Shown in pieces: positions 2,509 to 6,708 of a stretch of DNA of 6,708 nt; position 1 is the first letter of the stretch; every line of letters begins with the position of its first letter. The DNA comes from Chloroflexota bacterium (GTDB lineage: Bacteria; Chloroflexota; Anaerolineae; Ardenticatenales; Ardenticatenaceae). The notes beneath the pieces were generated by a model. That model worked only from the letters and a program-made list of their open reading frames with translations, was not told where the DNA came from and ran no database searches. Where the stretch lies: NCBI GenBank assembly GCA_003520455.1, contig DOUV01000367.1, forward strand, positions 1-6,708. The letters are read 5' to 3'. A program made the translations under genes and the position numbers.

Positions 2509-3204
2509 ATGCACCAGAAGACCACTGACGCCCCGCAAACCGCAGGCCGCGTCCTCCACAGACACGCGCGCTGGTACGATCTTTTCGGCAGAGTCATCTC
2601 GTTCGGGCAGGACAAGGCGATCCGGGAGAAGCTCATAGAGCTCGCCGCGCCGGCGCCCGGTGAGAAGGTGCTCGACGTTGGCTGCGGCACGGGCACGCTC
2701 GCGATCGCCATCAAGTCGCAGGTGGGCGCCAGCGAGGTGCACGGCATCGACGCCTCTCCTGAGATGATCCAGGTCGCGAAGGAGAAGTCAGCCAAAAACG
2801 GCTCCGATATCGATTTCCGAGTCGCCCTGATCGAGGCGATCCCGTTCCCGGATGCTTCCTTCGATCTCGTGACCAGCAGCCTCATGCTCCACCACCTACC
2901 GGACGATCTGAAGGCGAAGGGCTTTCTGGAGATACGGCGCGTGCTGAAGCCCGGCGGCCGCTTCATGGCGATGGACTTCGCTGCGCACAGCCTCTCGCCC
3001 CTCGGCCATCTGCTGTCGATGCACAGCCACTCCCCCCTCAGCCATCTGCTGTCGGTCTTCGGCTACTCGCGCGGCGAGAGCATGGTCGACAAGCTGGCGC
3101 CGATGCTCAAGGACGCCGGCTTCAGCGACGTTGAGGGCATCCCCACGCGCCACAAGAACTTCGCCTTCATCCGCGCCCGCTCACCAATGCCGAAGAAGCC
3201 ATAG
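2509..3204 (+). CDS. class I SAM-dependent methyltransferase (UbiE/Methyltransf_11-like)
   Basis: This 231-residue soluble protein has the fold that transfers a methyl group from S-adenosylmethionine. Motif I is VLDVGCGTGTLAIAI (54-68), the acidic ribose-binding residue follows in HGIDAS (D81), the post-II region PFPDASFDLVTSSLMLHHL is at 112-130, and the RRVLKPGGRF strand is at 143-152. The substrate cannot be told from sequence; a small molecule such as a quinone or lipid intermediate is typical of the family, but ubiE is not claimed. AAGGAGG (2495-2501) seven bases before the ATG fixes the start. Residues 160-171 and 172-183 are a tandem duplication (HSxSPLxHLLS) in the region that usually forms the substrate lid. 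The gene stands alone between two copies of a direct repeat and converges on the kinase that ends at 3348. Confidence 0.92.
   Translation: MHQKTTDAPQTAGRVLHRHARWYDLFGRVISFGQDKAIREKLIELAAPAPGEKVLDVGCGTGTLAIAIKSQVGASEVHGIDASPEMIQVAKEKSAKNGSDIDFRVALIEAIPFPDASFDLVTSSLMLHHLPDDLKAKGFLEIRRVLKPGGRFMAMDFAAHSLSPLGHLLSMHSHSPLSHLLSVFGYSRGESMVDKLAPMLKDAGFSDVEGIPTRHKNFAFIRARSPMPKKP
2986..3057 (+). repeat. 36-bp tandem duplication inside the methyltransferase
   Basis: Units 2986-3021 and 3022-3057 agree at 31 of 36 bases and encode HSLSPLGHLLSM and HSHSPLSHLLSV. The repeat keeps the reading frame and lengthens the His/Ser/Leu-rich stretch between the main Rossmann fold and the C-terminal part. Confidence 0.85.
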
Positions 3205-3315
3205 CATCCTCCTCTTACTCCCTCTGGTCTCTCGAACCATCCCGAAAAATAGCCCTTTTCCTCTCTCCTCTGTCTTCTACGGGTCATGTCCCGCGGACTG
3301 CTGTTACCTATGTAG
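3204..3315 (+). repeat. direct repeat copy 2, downstream of the methyltransferase
   Basis: This is the second copy of the repeat at 2349-2459. It starts at the last base of the methyltransferase stop codon and shares the 28-bp perfect core. At the place of the -10 box in copy 1, it has TATGTAGGA, which equals the copy 1 sequence minus CTAGTA. It looks like a decayed duplicate of the methyltransferase promoter region. No gene follows it in the same direction. Confidence 0.75.
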
Positions 3316-3340: not shown

Positions 3341-3355
3341 GAGGCTGTCAGCCTC
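3341..3355. terminator. small hairpin at the convergent gene ends
   Basis: GAGGCT (3341-3346) and AGCCTC (3350-3355) are separated by three bases and overlap the stop codon of the minus-strand kinase. There is no T-tract on either side. It could mark the 3' end of the kinase transcript, but the evidence is thin. Confidence 0.25.
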
Positions 3356-4574
3356 CTCCGCGCACTAGAGAGTGCTTGTTCCAGTCATGCGGTTTGGATT
3401 TCTCCGACACCGCGGGTATTCGTACCCGTACGGCGAGGCCTCCGTCTTCCCGGGGCGAGGCGTAGACGTCACCACCGAGTGCGTGGGCGACGGACTGCAC
3501 GATTGACAGGCCGAGTCCGGCTCCGCGGCTGATCGAGGTATTGGCGGAGTCGGCGAGTCGTTCCGTGGTGCGCAGGCGGCGGAATGGTTCGAACAGACTC
3601 GGGACTTCGTAGGGCGGAACGGGCGGTCCGGTGTTTTCGACGGTGAGGTGGACGTTATCATCGACCACGCCGGTGGTGACCGTGACCCAGCCGTGTTCGG
3701 GCAGGTTGTAGCGGATGGCATTGTCGACCAGGTTCTGGGTGAGCCGTTCCAGGAGTACTGGGTCGCCTGCCACCGGGGCAGGCAGCAGGTGGGTGCGGAT
3801 GGCGACGCCGGCGTTCTGCGCGGCGCCTTGGGATTCCGTGGTGATGTGCCGTGCGATGTCGGCGAGGTCAACAAGGGTGGATTCTGTGACGTGTTGTTCG
3901 CTGCTGGCGAGGGTGAGCAGGCCGTCGATAAGCCGTTCGTGGCGTTGGTTGACGGCGAGCAGGGTGGCGCCCAGCTGACGCAGTGATTCGTTTGCTTGAG
4001 GATCGCTGAGTGCGACTTCGATGAGGGTGCGGTTGATCGTGAGGGGTGTGCGCAGCTCGTGGGAGGCGTTGGCGACGAATCGTCGCTGGCTGTCGAAGGA
4101 GCGATCAAGCCGTTCGAGCATGGCGTCGAGTGTGTCAGCGAGTTCTTTGATCTCGTCGTTGGGCCCGACGAGGGCGATGCGCTCGTGCAGGCTGCGGTCG
4201 GCGATCCGCCGGGCGGTCGCGGTAATCTGCCGCAGCGGATGCAACGCCTGGCCGGCAAGGAGCCATCCGAATCCTCCCGCGATGACACCGACGACACCGA
4301 GCATGATAAGCGAGGCGATGAGCATTGTGTTGAGGGTGTCGTCTCGGGCTTGCTGGAGTTGCGCCCTGAGCGCATCGTGCACTTCTGGCGACTGGTGTTG
4401 AAGGGTTTGTTCGGTGATGTCGCCCCGCACGGTCAGCTGATGGTTAAGGGTCTGCCCCAGGTACAAATACATCAGCGCGACGAGCGTCACGCCGGCGAGG
4501 AAGAACGCCCCGGCGTAGAGCAGGGTGAGCCGGACCCGGATCGTAGAAGGCCACCAGCGGCGTGGGGTGGTCAT
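3348..4574 (-). CDS. OmpR-partner sensor histidine kinase (HAMP, HisKA, HATPase_c)
   Basis: This 408-residue membrane kinase should phosphorylate the regulator encoded just upstream. TM1 spans about 14-38, a short extracytoplasmic loop of ~45 residues follows, TM2 is about 84-108, and HAMP about 109-161. The H box FVANASHELRTPL carries phosphoacceptor H172. The ATPase domain shows the N box LTQNLVDNAIRYN (278-290), a G1 box VENTGPPVP (312-320) with Asn where many kinases have Asp, the F box LFEPFRRL, and the G2 box GAGLGLSIVQ (351-360). From memory, the VENTG form is usual in actinobacterial relatives, so I do not read it as loss of activity. The frame is open up to 4694, but MTTPRRWW at 4574 is chosen because its ATG overlaps the regulator's stop (ATGA), indicating coupled translation. 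The loop is small, so the stimulus may be at the membrane. Confidence 0.94.
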   Translation of the reverse strand: MTTPRRWWPSTIRVRLTLLYAGAFFLAGVTLVALMYLYLGQTLNHQLTVRGDITEQTLQHQSPEVHDALRAQLQQARDDTLNTMLIASLIMLGVVGVIAGGFGWLLAGQALHPLRQITATARRIADRSLHERIALVGPNDEIKELADTLDAMLERLDRSFDSQRRFVANASHELRTPLTINRTLIEVALSDPQANESLRQLGATLLAVNQRHERLIDGLLTLASSEQHVTESTLVDLADIARHITTESQGAAQNAGVAIRTHLLPAPVAGDPVLLERLTQNLVDNAIRYNLPEHGWVTVTTGVVDDNVHLTVENTGPPVPPYEVPSLFEPFRRLRTTERLADSANTSISRGAGLGLSIVQSVAHALGGDVYASPREDGGLAVRVRIPAVSEKSKPHDWNKHSLVRGGG

Positions 4575-5227
4575 GGGATGCGGTACCCGGTACCGGGAAT
4601 GGTCTCGATGACCGGCGGGTCGCCCAGTTTCCGGCGCACCATCATGATGGTGAACCGGACGACGCCGGTGAACGGGTCGATGTGTTCGTCCCATGCTTTC
4701 TCCAGGAGCTGCTCGGCCGAGACCACGCCGCCCTCGGCCCGCAAGAGCTCAGCAAGGACCGCGAACTCCTTCCGGGACAACCCCACGGGGTGACCGTCTC
4801 GGGTGACGGTGCGACGATGCGGATCGAGGCGGATACCTGCCCGCTGGAGCACGGGTGGCGCGGCGGGCCGGGCGCGCCTGCCCAGCGCCTGGACACGGGC
4901 GGTCAGCTCGGCGAACGCGAACGGCTTGGTCAGGTAGTCATCCGCCCCGAGGCTGAGCCCGGCTACGCGTTGTGTCACCGCGGTGGCGGCGGTGAGCATG
5001 AGAATCCGGGTGTCGAGGCCGGAGTCGACGAGGGTCGTGCAGACCTCGTCGCCGGACACGATGGGCAGGTCGCGGTCGAGCACAACGACGTCATAGTCGT
5101 TGACCGCTAACCGCTCCAGCGCGGCGTCGCCGTCGTAGGCCACGTCTACGGCCATCGCGTGTCGGCGTAGGCCCTCAGCGATGGTGTCCGCGAGCAGCCG
5201 TTCGTCCTCCACCACGAGTACACGCAT
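4571..5227 (-). CDS. OmpR/PhoB-type response regulator
   Basis: This 218-residue DNA-binding regulator has a receiver domain (1-115) with acidic E7/D8, phosphoacceptor D51 in VVLDRDLP, T79 in LMLTA, and K101 in YLTKPF. A winged-helix effector domain (about 125-218) includes LSRKEFAVLAELL and ends GTGYRIP. Start 5227 is chosen because MRVLVVEDE is the normal first strand of the fold. A GTG at 5281 is in frame and would add 18 residues of Cys/Trp/Arg-rich sequence unlike any receiver, so it is unlikely. The start lies in a 28-bp tandem repeat (5200-5283), and GGAGG for the 5227 ATG is supplied by the Val-Glu-Asp codons of the repeat unit before it. The gene overlaps its kinase (ATGA). The divergent four-half-site operator is a probable autoregulatory target. 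Confidence 0.94.
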   Translation of the reverse strand: MRVLVVEDERLLADTIAEGLRRHAMAVDVAYDGDAALERLAVNDYDVVVLDRDLPIVSGDEVCTTLVDSGLDTRILMLTAATAVTQRVAGLSLGADDYLTKPFAFAELTARVQALGRRARPAAPPVLQRAGIRLDPHRRTVTRDGHPVGLSRKEFAVLAELLRAEGGVVSAEQLLEKAWDEHIDPFTGVVRFTIMMVRRKLGDPPVIETIPGTGYRIP

Positions 5228-5283
5228 GTTCGTCCTCCACCACGAGTACACACATGTTCGTCCTCCACCACGAGTACACACAT
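5200..5283 (-). repeat. three 28-bp tandem repeats carrying the regulator's start codon
   Basis: Units are 5200-5227, 5228-5255 and 5256-5283; the last two are identical and the first differs by one base. Read on the minus strand, each begins ATG, continues with codons for VLVVEDE, and ends GAAC before the next ATG. Starts at 5283 and 5255 shift out of frame and stop after 45 and 26 codons (TAG at 5148-5146, TGA at 5177-5175). Only 5227 opens the regulator. Each unit ends with GGAGG six bases before the next ATG, so each copy supplies a ribosome binding site for the one downstream. Confidence 0.93.
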
Positions 5284-5292
5284 GACTTCATT

Positions 5293-5298
5293 ATTATA
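5293..5298 (-). promoter_or_regulatory. -10 box of the OmpR-type regulator/kinase operon
   Basis: The minus strand reads TATAAT, a perfect -10, ending nine bases before the outermost repeat ATG at 5283. A transcript starting 6-8 bases after it would have almost no leader, so that ATG would be read as a leaderless start. The -35 position (about 5316-5321) has no TTGACA-like sequence and lies between two GTTAG half-sites, which fits activation by an OmpR-type protein. Confidence 0.55.
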
Positions 5299-5307
5299 TC
5301 ATGTCAC

Positions 5308-5353
5308 GGCGTTAGGGCGTTGTTAGGCCATTCCCTAACATTGCGCTAACGCC
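5308..5353. promoter_or_regulatory. four-half-site palindromic operator in the divergent promoter region
   Basis: GTTAG occurs at 5311-5315 and 5322-5326, and CTAAC at 5335-5339 and 5346-5350. Each direct pair is spaced exactly 11 bp, and the two pairs mirror each other about 5330.5. The outer arms GGCGTTAG/CTAACGCC and the inner arms TGTTAGG/CCTAACA are exact. OmpR/PhoB regulators bind head-to-tail on direct repeats with about 11-bp period, so this would suit two dimers facing each other. It lies between the regulator operon and the genes starting at 5398/5432. Binding by the neighbouring regulator is inferred. Confidence 0.65.
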
Positions 5354-5397
5354 CGAAGGTGTAACATAGCTCTGACGCCATGCAAGGAGGGCCGAAA

Positions 5398-5439
5398 ATG
5401 ACGACCGGGATGCACAGAGGAGAACACGCATATGGCTGA
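5398..5439 (+). CDS. possible 13-residue leader peptide
   Basis: AAGGAGG (5384-5390) stands seven bases before an ATG at 5398 that opens a 13-codon frame, MTTGMHRGEHAYG, ending TGA at 5437-5439. This is one of the best ribosome binding sites in the window. Its stop overlaps the start of the next gene (ATG 5432) by eight bases, so ribosomes ending here could feed the next start. It may be a translated leader or the decayed start of a longer gene. There is no run of one amino acid that would suggest classical attenuation. Confidence 0.35.
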   Translation: MTTGMHRGEHAYG

Positions 5440-5800
5440 CCGCGGATTGACCATCCGCATACCAATCTGGGTGAGGGTGTCTGGGATCATCGCCCTCGTC
5501 CTGGTCGGGGTGGTTGTCAGCTCGATGTTGCTGGGCGGCAGCGTCTCTGGTGGTCAGGACGGTGGCAGCGTCTCTGGTGGCCGCGACCATGGTAGCCAGA
5601 CAGAGCAGACGGATCACAACGGGGGCCAAACCGGACCGGCAGCGCCGTCCGGGTTGGAGCCGGCGGAGAACCCTGCGCCGTCCGGTCACCAGAGACCACC
5701 CCAAGAACGGGGATCATCGGATGGCCCTGACGACCCCACACCGACACCGTCCCACGGCTCTGGTGACCACACACGGTCCGATGGCAGTCGGGGCCACTAA
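5432..5800 (+). CDS. small single-pass membrane protein with Gly/Ser/Pro/His-rich tail
   Basis: The 122-residue product has a short N-terminus with Arg9, one membrane helix at about 13-34 (VRVSGIIALVLVGVVVSSML), and then ~85 residues of low-complexity tail rich in Gly, Ser, Pro, Asp and His with no cysteine. The tail is probably outside the membrane and unstructured, and its several His and Asp residues could bind metal weakly. GGSVSGGQD / GGSVSGGRD at 35-52 is a tandem repeat. AGAGGAG (5416-5422) nine bases before the ATG supports the start. It is transcribed divergently from the OmpR-type pair and is a likely target of it. I recall similar small proteins next to two-component genes and DUF2269-like proteins in actinobacteria, but cannot name a family. 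Confidence 0.7.
   Translation: MADRGLTIRIPIWVRVSGIIALVLVGVVVSSMLLGGSVSGGQDGGSVSGGRDHGSQTEQTDHNGGQTGPAAPSGLEPAENPAPSGHQRPPQERGSSDGPDDPTPTPSHGSGDHTRSDGSRGH
5534..5587 (+). repeat. 27-bp tandem duplication in the small membrane protein
   Basis: Units 5534-5560 and 5561-5587 encode GGSVSGGQD and GGSVSGGRD and share the exact stretch GGCAGCGTCTCTGGTGG. The repeat is in frame and extends the tail directly after the membrane helix. Confidence 0.85.
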
Positions 5801-5820
5801 CCATCAGAGGAGCAACAGCT

Positions 5821-5940
5821 ATGACCGTGACACCCGACCTCCGCACCTTCGTGCTCATCGTGCATATCACCTCCACGGTCGGCTGGGTCGGCGAGGTCAA
5901 CCGAGCGGGATTTCAGTCGAGCAAGGGAGGCAGCGCATGA
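5821..5940 (+). pseudogene. 5' remnant of a DUF2269-like membrane protein gene
   Basis: This 39-codon frame starts MTVTPDLRTFVLIVHITS and continues TVGWVGEV. From memory, that resembles the N-terminus of a DUF2269-type integral membrane family (LTPRLRKxALTAHVTSSVGWLGAV) whose members are about 150 residues with four or so membrane helices. After the Trp-Val-Gly the resemblance ends, and the frame runs through NRAGFQSSKGGSA to a stop, so most of the gene is missing, probably by deletion with a junction near 5893-5900. AGAGGAG (5806-5812) before the ATG is intact. The stop overlaps the next start (ATGA at 5937-5940), so the remnant may still be translated and feed ribosomes into the haem protein. 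It could instead be a genuine 39-residue peptide with one short hydrophobic segment. Confidence 0.55.
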
Positions 5941-6708
5941 GTACGCAAGCAGCCATCCGATCTTTGAATCAGAGGCGTGGCGCCAGCGGCGACTGGCGTC
6001 GTCGCCTTCTCCTCCACCATGCGCCGCTCGCCGTTGTCAGCGCTGTAGTCCTTTTCCTGTTCATGAGCCTCTCGCCCTTCGACCCTCAAGCATACCCCCA
6101 GGAGGGCATGGGCCCTGGTGTGTTCCCCCGGGTGGCACTGGTAGGCGAGGGCGTACAACAGCGCTTCTTCATGTCGCCCCAGGACCTCTACCAGGACGCG
6201 AAGCGGAGTCTGGAGAGCGAGGGGCGCCAACGGCGCTTCTTCATGACACGGGTTACCGACGCCACCGGCTACGTCGCCACCGGGCTCCTCGCGCTCACGC
6301 TCCTCATCGGGCCGGCCAACCTCCTGCTCCGTAGGCGGACTCCCGTCTCAAGCTATTTTCGGCGTGACGTGGGGACGTGGACGGCCATCTTCAGCGTGGT
6401 CCACGTGATCTTTGGCTGGCAGCTGCATGGCGGCGGACGGATCTCCGCCATGCTCAACTACTTCTTTGCGCCCGATGGCAGCCCGATGCTCGATAATTTT
6501 GGCCTGGCGAACTGGTCCGGGCTGGCCGCGCTGGTGATCGTAGTGATGTTGCTCGCGCTTTCCACCGACGGCGCCCTGCGGGAACTCAAGGCCAGGACAT
6601 GGAAGAACCTCCAGCGCCTGAACTACACTTTGTTCGCGCTGGTCATCTTACATGTGTTCTTCTACGGGGCACTGCTGCGAATGACATCCCCCTTTACGCT
6701 CCTCGGTG
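5937..6708 (+). CDS. ferric-reductase-like haem membrane protein, 5' part
   Basis: The frame has 257 complete codons and runs off the right edge without a stop. AAGGGAGG (5923-5930) six bases before the ATG fixes the start. TM1 is about 29-46; an extracytoplasmic or loop segment of ~60 residues (48-105) follows. Further helices lie at about 109-131, 146-164, 192-210 and 229-247. Single histidines sit where haem ligands are expected: H156 (SVVHVIFG), H164, and H239 (LVILHVFF). The patterns FRRDVGTWTA...H and LQRLNYTLFALVILH match the conserved starts of two helices in the ferric reductase-like transmembrane domain (FRE/NOX/MsrQ group). That domain carries electrons across the membrane via haem b; the electron donor and acceptor cannot be assigned, and any flavin or NAD domain would be outside the window. 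It may be translationally coupled to the remnant upstream. Confidence 0.75.
   Translation, partial: MSTQAAIRSLNQRRGASGDWRRRLLLHHAPLAVVSAVVLFLFMSLSPFDPQAYPQEGMGPGVFPRVALVGEGVQQRFFMSPQDLYQDAKRSLESEGRQRRFFMTRVTDATGYVATGLLALTLLIGPANLLLRRRTPVSSYFRRDVGTWTAIFSVVHVIFGWQLHGGGRISAMLNYFFAPDGSPMLDNFGLANWSGLAALVIVVMLLALSTDGALRELKARTWKNLQRLNYTLFALVILHVFFYGALLRMTSPFTLLG

Follow-up and report, generated by a model that had tools for sequence, protein, structure and literature searches.

How is a response regulator translated when the beginning of its own gene precedes it in two further copies, both out of frame with the protein? The question is raised by a 6,708-nucleotide (nt) stretch of DNA from a Chloroflexota bacterium (contig DOUV01000367.1; hereafter the window), in which the gene for a 218-amino-acid OmpR/PhoB-type response regulator (4571 to 5227, minus strand) opens with an array of 28-bp tandem units. 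The explanation that we favour, and regard as reasonably probable, is that a leaderless regulator gene gained a leader and a Shine-Dalgarno (SD) sequence by tandem copying of its own start, leaving an SD-led innermost ATG with competing starts outside it.

Tandem Repeats Finder (TRF) placed three head-to-tail 28-bp units at 5200 to 5284 on the minus strand (period 28, 3.0 copies, 98% match, score 163). The initial annotation had described three copies of the gene start here, and this was borne out: the units span 5200 to 5283, two of them being identical and the third differing by a single base. When the window was shuffled 200 times with its dinucleotides preserved, no repeat scored above 59, which rules out a chance repeat as the origin of the array and puts it far beyond chance. 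Of all 59 TRF rows with a period of at least 20 in the window and 80 related loci, some of them overlapping, this array also had the top score.

The outer unit (5256 to 5283, minus strand) carries an ATG at 5283 to 5281, near the predicted 5' end of the mRNA. As had been stated, this ATG is in the wrong frame with respect to the regulator, and it opens a 45-amino-acid open reading frame (ORF) that ends at a stop codon at 5148 to 5146. The middle unit (5228 to 5255, minus strand) is identical to the outer one, and its ATG at 5255, preceded by GGAGG at 6 nt, opens an out-of-frame ORF of 26 amino acids. The ATG of the inner unit (5200 to 5227, minus strand), at 5227 and likewise with GGAGG at 6 nt, is the presumed start of the regulator; here the ATG is followed by CGT, in place of the TGT of the outer and middle units. 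Both out-of-frame ORFs extend beyond the regulator start at 5227. Since 28 leaves a remainder of 1 when divided by three, each unit shifts the frame, and in the frame cycle computed for one to six units the outermost ATG is in frame with one unit, out of frame with two or three, and in frame again, with an extension, at four. The claim that the innermost ATG alone makes the regulator stands as far as ATGs are concerned, but it overlooked an in-frame GTG (5279 to 5281, minus strand), 2 bases inside the outer unit, which would add 18 N-terminal residues.

We then considered which of these starts the ribosome would use. The two extra units insert 56 bp ahead of the regulator start, and the segment of the repeat that would serve as leader consists of the gene's own codons (GGAGGACGAAC-ATG). 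A GGAGG lies within the regulator codons for V-V-E-D-E (GTGGTGGAGGACGAAC), and it precedes the next ATG by six bases, so that the inner and middle ATGs both have this motif at a gap of 6 nt, inside the 5 to 13 nt expected of an SD. The gap is the same as that of the window genes at 557 and 5937, and it is 7 nt for the gene at 2509. The notion that the GGAGG of every unit serves the next ATG therefore applies to two of the three units, there being no further ATG behind the inner one, while the proposed hand-over of translation to an internal GGAGG gains support from the 6-nt spacing. In Mycobacterium smegmatis reporters, a start at the 5' end and an SD-led start at +30 were both used, and the SD-led one was the more enriched (PMC4633059). 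Because an SD-led start is strong there beside a 5'-end start, the inner ATG should work in the window too, with the outer starts competing with it rather than shutting it off. The reporter starts shared one frame, and the reporters came from another phylum than the window.

The mechanism that we propose is as follows. A regulator gene that was leaderless and probably self-regulated would have had its first 28 bp tandemly copied, and the two extra copies would have become a new 5' leader, each supplying a ready-made SD through its V-V-E-D-E codons. Since these codons carry GGAGG six bases ahead of the next ATG, initiation would have shifted from the 5' end, in the leaderless manner, to the innermost ATG with its SD, from which the regulator and the overlapping sensor histidine kinase (3348 to 4574, minus strand) would mainly be made. 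The ATG of the kinase gene overlaps the stop codon of the regulator gene (ATGA), and its translation is probably coupled to that of the regulator through this overlap. The ORFs opened by the outer ATG, close to the 5' end, and by the middle ATG, with its SD, would probably lower or tune the output of both proteins.

The leaderless ancestry assumed here was judged from the promoter and from related loci. As the initial annotation had it, a TATAAT, the presumed -10 element of the regulator promoter, lies nine bases ahead of the outermost ATG (5293 to 5298, minus strand); an overlapping AATAAT ends three bases closer to the start. Farther upstream is a direct repeat, CTAAC-N6-CTAAC (5311 to 5326, minus strand), which we presume to be a binding site of the regulator and whose second half-site starts 17 nt before the -10 element. 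A second CTAAC-N6-CTAAC (5335 to 5350, plus strand), the mirror image of the first, faces the divergent genes for a small protein and a ferric-reductase-like protein, and by eye a TAACAT (5362 to 5367) is found 16 nt past the start of its second half-site. Because the mirror-image pairs face both directions, the regulator probably controls its own gene as well as its neighbours. The two-component system is probably self-activated.

For comparison, we used 55 distinct upstream regions (L001 to L038 and L107 to L124, that is, 56 loci from which one duplicate was dropped; L039 to L106 were left out). The direct repeat was present in 28 of them, and in 24 of these 28 a hexamer xAxxxT followed exactly 17 nt onward, the register into which the window also fits. 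In a 16-locus subset, the offset of 17 was matched in 12 loci and every other offset from 10 to 25 in none to two. Two kinds of start spacing occur under this promoter core. In 24 of the 28 regions, 30 to 113 nt separate the start from the -10 position, and a loose pattern finds an SD-like motif in 23 of them; in the other four, namely L108 (the same site as L001), L015, L124, and L019, the start lies 5 to 7 nt after that position. The starts of L001/L108, L015, and L124 are 6 to 7 nt past a -10-like hexamer, and L019 has no such hexamer. L001, from Nocardia pneumoniae, is the closest relative (83% identity) among the DNA matches listed. It has a tandem array of its own (4839 to 4948; period 38, 2.9 copies) directly upstream of its leaderless-like start, the units of which, by eye, hold degenerate copies of the operator half-site.

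The closest proteins (88 to 94% identity, mostly metagenomic) were compared as protein sequences only, and gene calls were counted as extended if they had at least 4 extra residues. Among the 120 nearest proteins there were 10 extended calls, and in all of them the extra residues include a pair that encodes a -10-like sequence 6 or 9 nt upstream of the start, against a background of 2.3% per position, and two of them have Tyr-Asn (TAY-AAY) at nine bases, the same gap as in the window. Because its relatives share the promoter register, the leaderless-like starts, and the -10 signature of the extended calls, the ancestral single-unit gene was probably leaderless, in keeping with the earlier suggestion that a lone in-frame ATG would be read without a leader.

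Several observations weigh against this reconstruction. The direct repeat was not matched in 27 of the 55 regions (19 of them below 65% identity, 8 not), which include the next-closest loci after L001 (L111, L003, L109, L002, and L110; 73 to 75% identity), and its pattern was defined after part of the sequences had already been inspected. When all the related proteins gathered are taken together, the -10-like signature is found in 18 of 36 extended calls. Counted from the second base of TATAAT, the A of the outer ATG is at 14 bases; the distance from the -10 element to the transcription start is quoted as 8 to 14 (PMC3160421), so that transcription starting exactly at the outer ATG would be at the edge of the range. 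Few Chloroflexi genes are leaderless by the figures of the same source, with any signal in 4 of 12 genomes and an average of 4.7% (PMC3160421). Finally, the predicted RNA fold gave a mixed result overall, leaving the SD open (0.95 unpaired) and the inner AUG paired (0.01 unpaired). Since the outer ATG lies at the far edge of the distance range, the mRNA may not be strictly leaderless but have a few bases ahead of this ATG; the earlier proposal that the outermost ATG is read as a leaderless start is supported to the extent of a leaderless or near-leaderless setting.

The single-base difference between the units bears on how the array arose. An Arg follows the start in all 92 near relatives that reach this residue (28 of the 120 calls begin downstream of it), and the T of TGT in both extra units is therefore derived. 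The simplest order of events would be a duplication, the mutation, and a second duplication, so that the number of units would have changed twice and the copying would probably have proceeded in two steps. Most likely the array is a recent allele. It would be tolerated because an SD-led start remains, and a 28-bp unit would be tolerable because it is located ahead of the start in use.

The initial annotation had gone further and read the array as a possible on/off or graded device. Slippage in the number of units would make the regulator dose phase variable, one unit giving a leaderless start, two or three SD-led starts beside out-of-frame 5' starts, and four an extended in-frame protein. Phase-variable contingency loci built on tandem repeats have units that are not multiples of three at the 5' end of a gene, as this array has, and the frame cycle described above follows from the 28-bp length; the units are, moreover, nearly identical, and their T/C pattern suggests at least two changes of unit number. 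Against this, 28 bp is long for the unit of a classical contingency locus, and no second allele was seen among the related N termini compared, a comparison that is blind to gene calls starting at the inner ATG. SD-led initiation at that ATG is, besides, available at every unit number of at least two, and such starts competed well, and were enriched, in the mycobacterial reporters. On/off regulation is accordingly not favoured, and we consider a phase-variable dose improbable.

The frame words of the repeat occurred in the window's own translation only among the related proteins compared, where calls beginning at the inner start are invisible; the search with the extended N terminus returned 510 matches (539 candidates), of which 120 were listed. 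TRF found no array over the regulator start in the 80 related loci, a set that leaves the DNA and reads of close relatives outside. A duplicated receiver start pattern, with one mismatch allowed, was absent from all 296 genomes in the phylum to which the L001 genome belongs, probably a different one from that of the window. In two further phylum searches, started from six loci of other or unstated groups (best identity, 58%), relatives of the regulator at E ≤ 1e-70 were found in 1 of 60 genomes and in none of 59 (best identity, 58%), with no Chloroflexota genome knowingly covered. Leaderless and leadered mRNAs can differ in their response to stress, and unit number could in principle toggle the regulator and the coupled kinase between leaderless and SD-led translation, setting both the dose and the conditions of their synthesis; we hold this to be quite doubtful.

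Alternatively, the array might be inert, a neutral tandem duplication without effect on output, if the transcript started elsewhere or the outer starts were ignored. The lineage may duplicate often, as the 6.7 kb of the window yield 2 TRF rows with a period of at least 20, compared with 57 in the 779 kb of the 80 related loci (42 of the 57 with periods divisible by three), and older tandem copies are present inside other ORFs, all of them multiples of three (611 to 712, 51 bp; 2985 to 3056, 36 bp; 5534 to 5587, 27 bp). The promoter register, on the other hand, would set the 5' end near the array, so that the region in which the mRNA starts must have changed, and we regard an inert array as unlikely. 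It is very unlikely that translation begins mainly at the in-frame GTG at 5281 and yields a regulator longer by 18 residues. This codon was created by the C-to-T change in the extra units, but its leader would be about 5 nt long, with no SD, and such an extension was found in none of the other related proteins compared; it was set aside as the main start on these grounds. Least probable of all is an artefact of sequencing or assembly, or a minor allele of the sampled population. The array rests on one assembly, but a normal short read can span its 84 bp, one base distinguishes the two unit types, and the regulator frame is unbroken.

A foreign origin was also considered and rejected. Viral contigs did not contain the array core exactly, phages gave no match to 5190 to 5300, and the relatives of the regulator in viral contigs had at most 41% identity. 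The plasmid records held distant regulators only (best identity, 74%), and none covered 80% of 4400 to 5900.

The regulator itself consists of a receiver and a Trans_reg_C domain, both above the curated cut-offs (PF00072, 89.7 bits with a cut-off of 30.2; PF00486, 63.4 bits with a cut-off of 26.2). The best NCBIfam models for the regulator and its kinase were VanR-O and VanS-O, but at 260.3 of 505 bits and 216.6 of 720 bits the scores fell far under the cut-offs and these identities were rejected; no van enzyme was found among the other five window proteins scanned. The divergent small protein (5432 to 5800, plus strand) matched no family and has, by eye, an N-terminal hydrophobic stretch. It is followed by a ferric-reductase-like membrane protein (5937 to 6707, plus strand) that continues beyond the window edge. 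A short ORF of about 39 codons (5821 to 5939, plus strand) resembles, by eye, the start of a membrane protein, and its stop codon overlaps the ATG of the ferric-reductase-like gene; it is possibly a truncated remnant. The neighbouring kinase at 557 to 1561 is 99% identical to P0234, a protein labelled Ardenticatenaceae bacterium (Chloroflexota). Elsewhere in the window, a 68-nt block upstream of a methyltransferase gene (2390 to 2457) recurs after the gene at 3245 to 3312 with 81% identity, a dispersed direct repeat that is possibly a promoter region, and a perfect 18-nt inverted repeat (GATCCTCCAAAACCCGCC) lies at 26 to 43 and 185 to 202, its arms 141 nt apart.

Among known systems, phase-variable contingency loci differ from this array in that here an SD-led start in the right frame persists at two units or more, and variation in copy number was not seen in the relatives compared. 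The leaderless genes described with a -10 element adjoining the ORF (PMC3160421, PMC12340547) resemble it in having a TATAAT a few bases before the ATG, and relatives of this regulator look leaderless; in the window, by contrast, the ATG nearest the 5' end is in another frame than the regulator, whose real start would lie 56 bp further in, behind an SD. The M. smegmatis reporters share the combination of a 5'-end start and an SD-led start, both able to initiate, but those starts were engineered and in frame, whereas here they are natural, repeated, and out of frame (PMC4633059). The mycobacterial MIRU repeats of the senX3-regX3 operon are likewise tandem repeats in a two-component operon, and they differ between strains; their units, of 77 or 53 bp, are reported between the two genes, while in the window the regulator's own start is copied (PMC4213456). 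The TAACTGA direct repeats of Beggiatoaceae also stand directly before starts and have a proposed role in translation, but they are described as a dispersed 7-bp family in genomes where canonical ribosome-binding sites are rare, in contrast to a single locus with the SD within the unit (PMC4679880). In the literature searched, we found no description of a tandemly repeated gene start whose unit contains an SD, which is weak evidence, as most subscription papers lay outside the search.

Start duplication can supply an SD here because receiver starts with V-V-E-D-E can spell GGAGG in their codons. If the array did toggle, it would be a contingency locus made from the gene's own coding sequence, with the V-V-E-D-E codons as a latent SD, and if unit number also varies, it would represent a new type of dose switch. 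On the explanation that we favour, the locus would be a natural snapshot of a leaderless gene gaining a leader, in which duplication of the start yields an untranslated region together with an SD. With both start spacings found under the same promoter core in relatives, the step from leaderless to leadered becomes testable.
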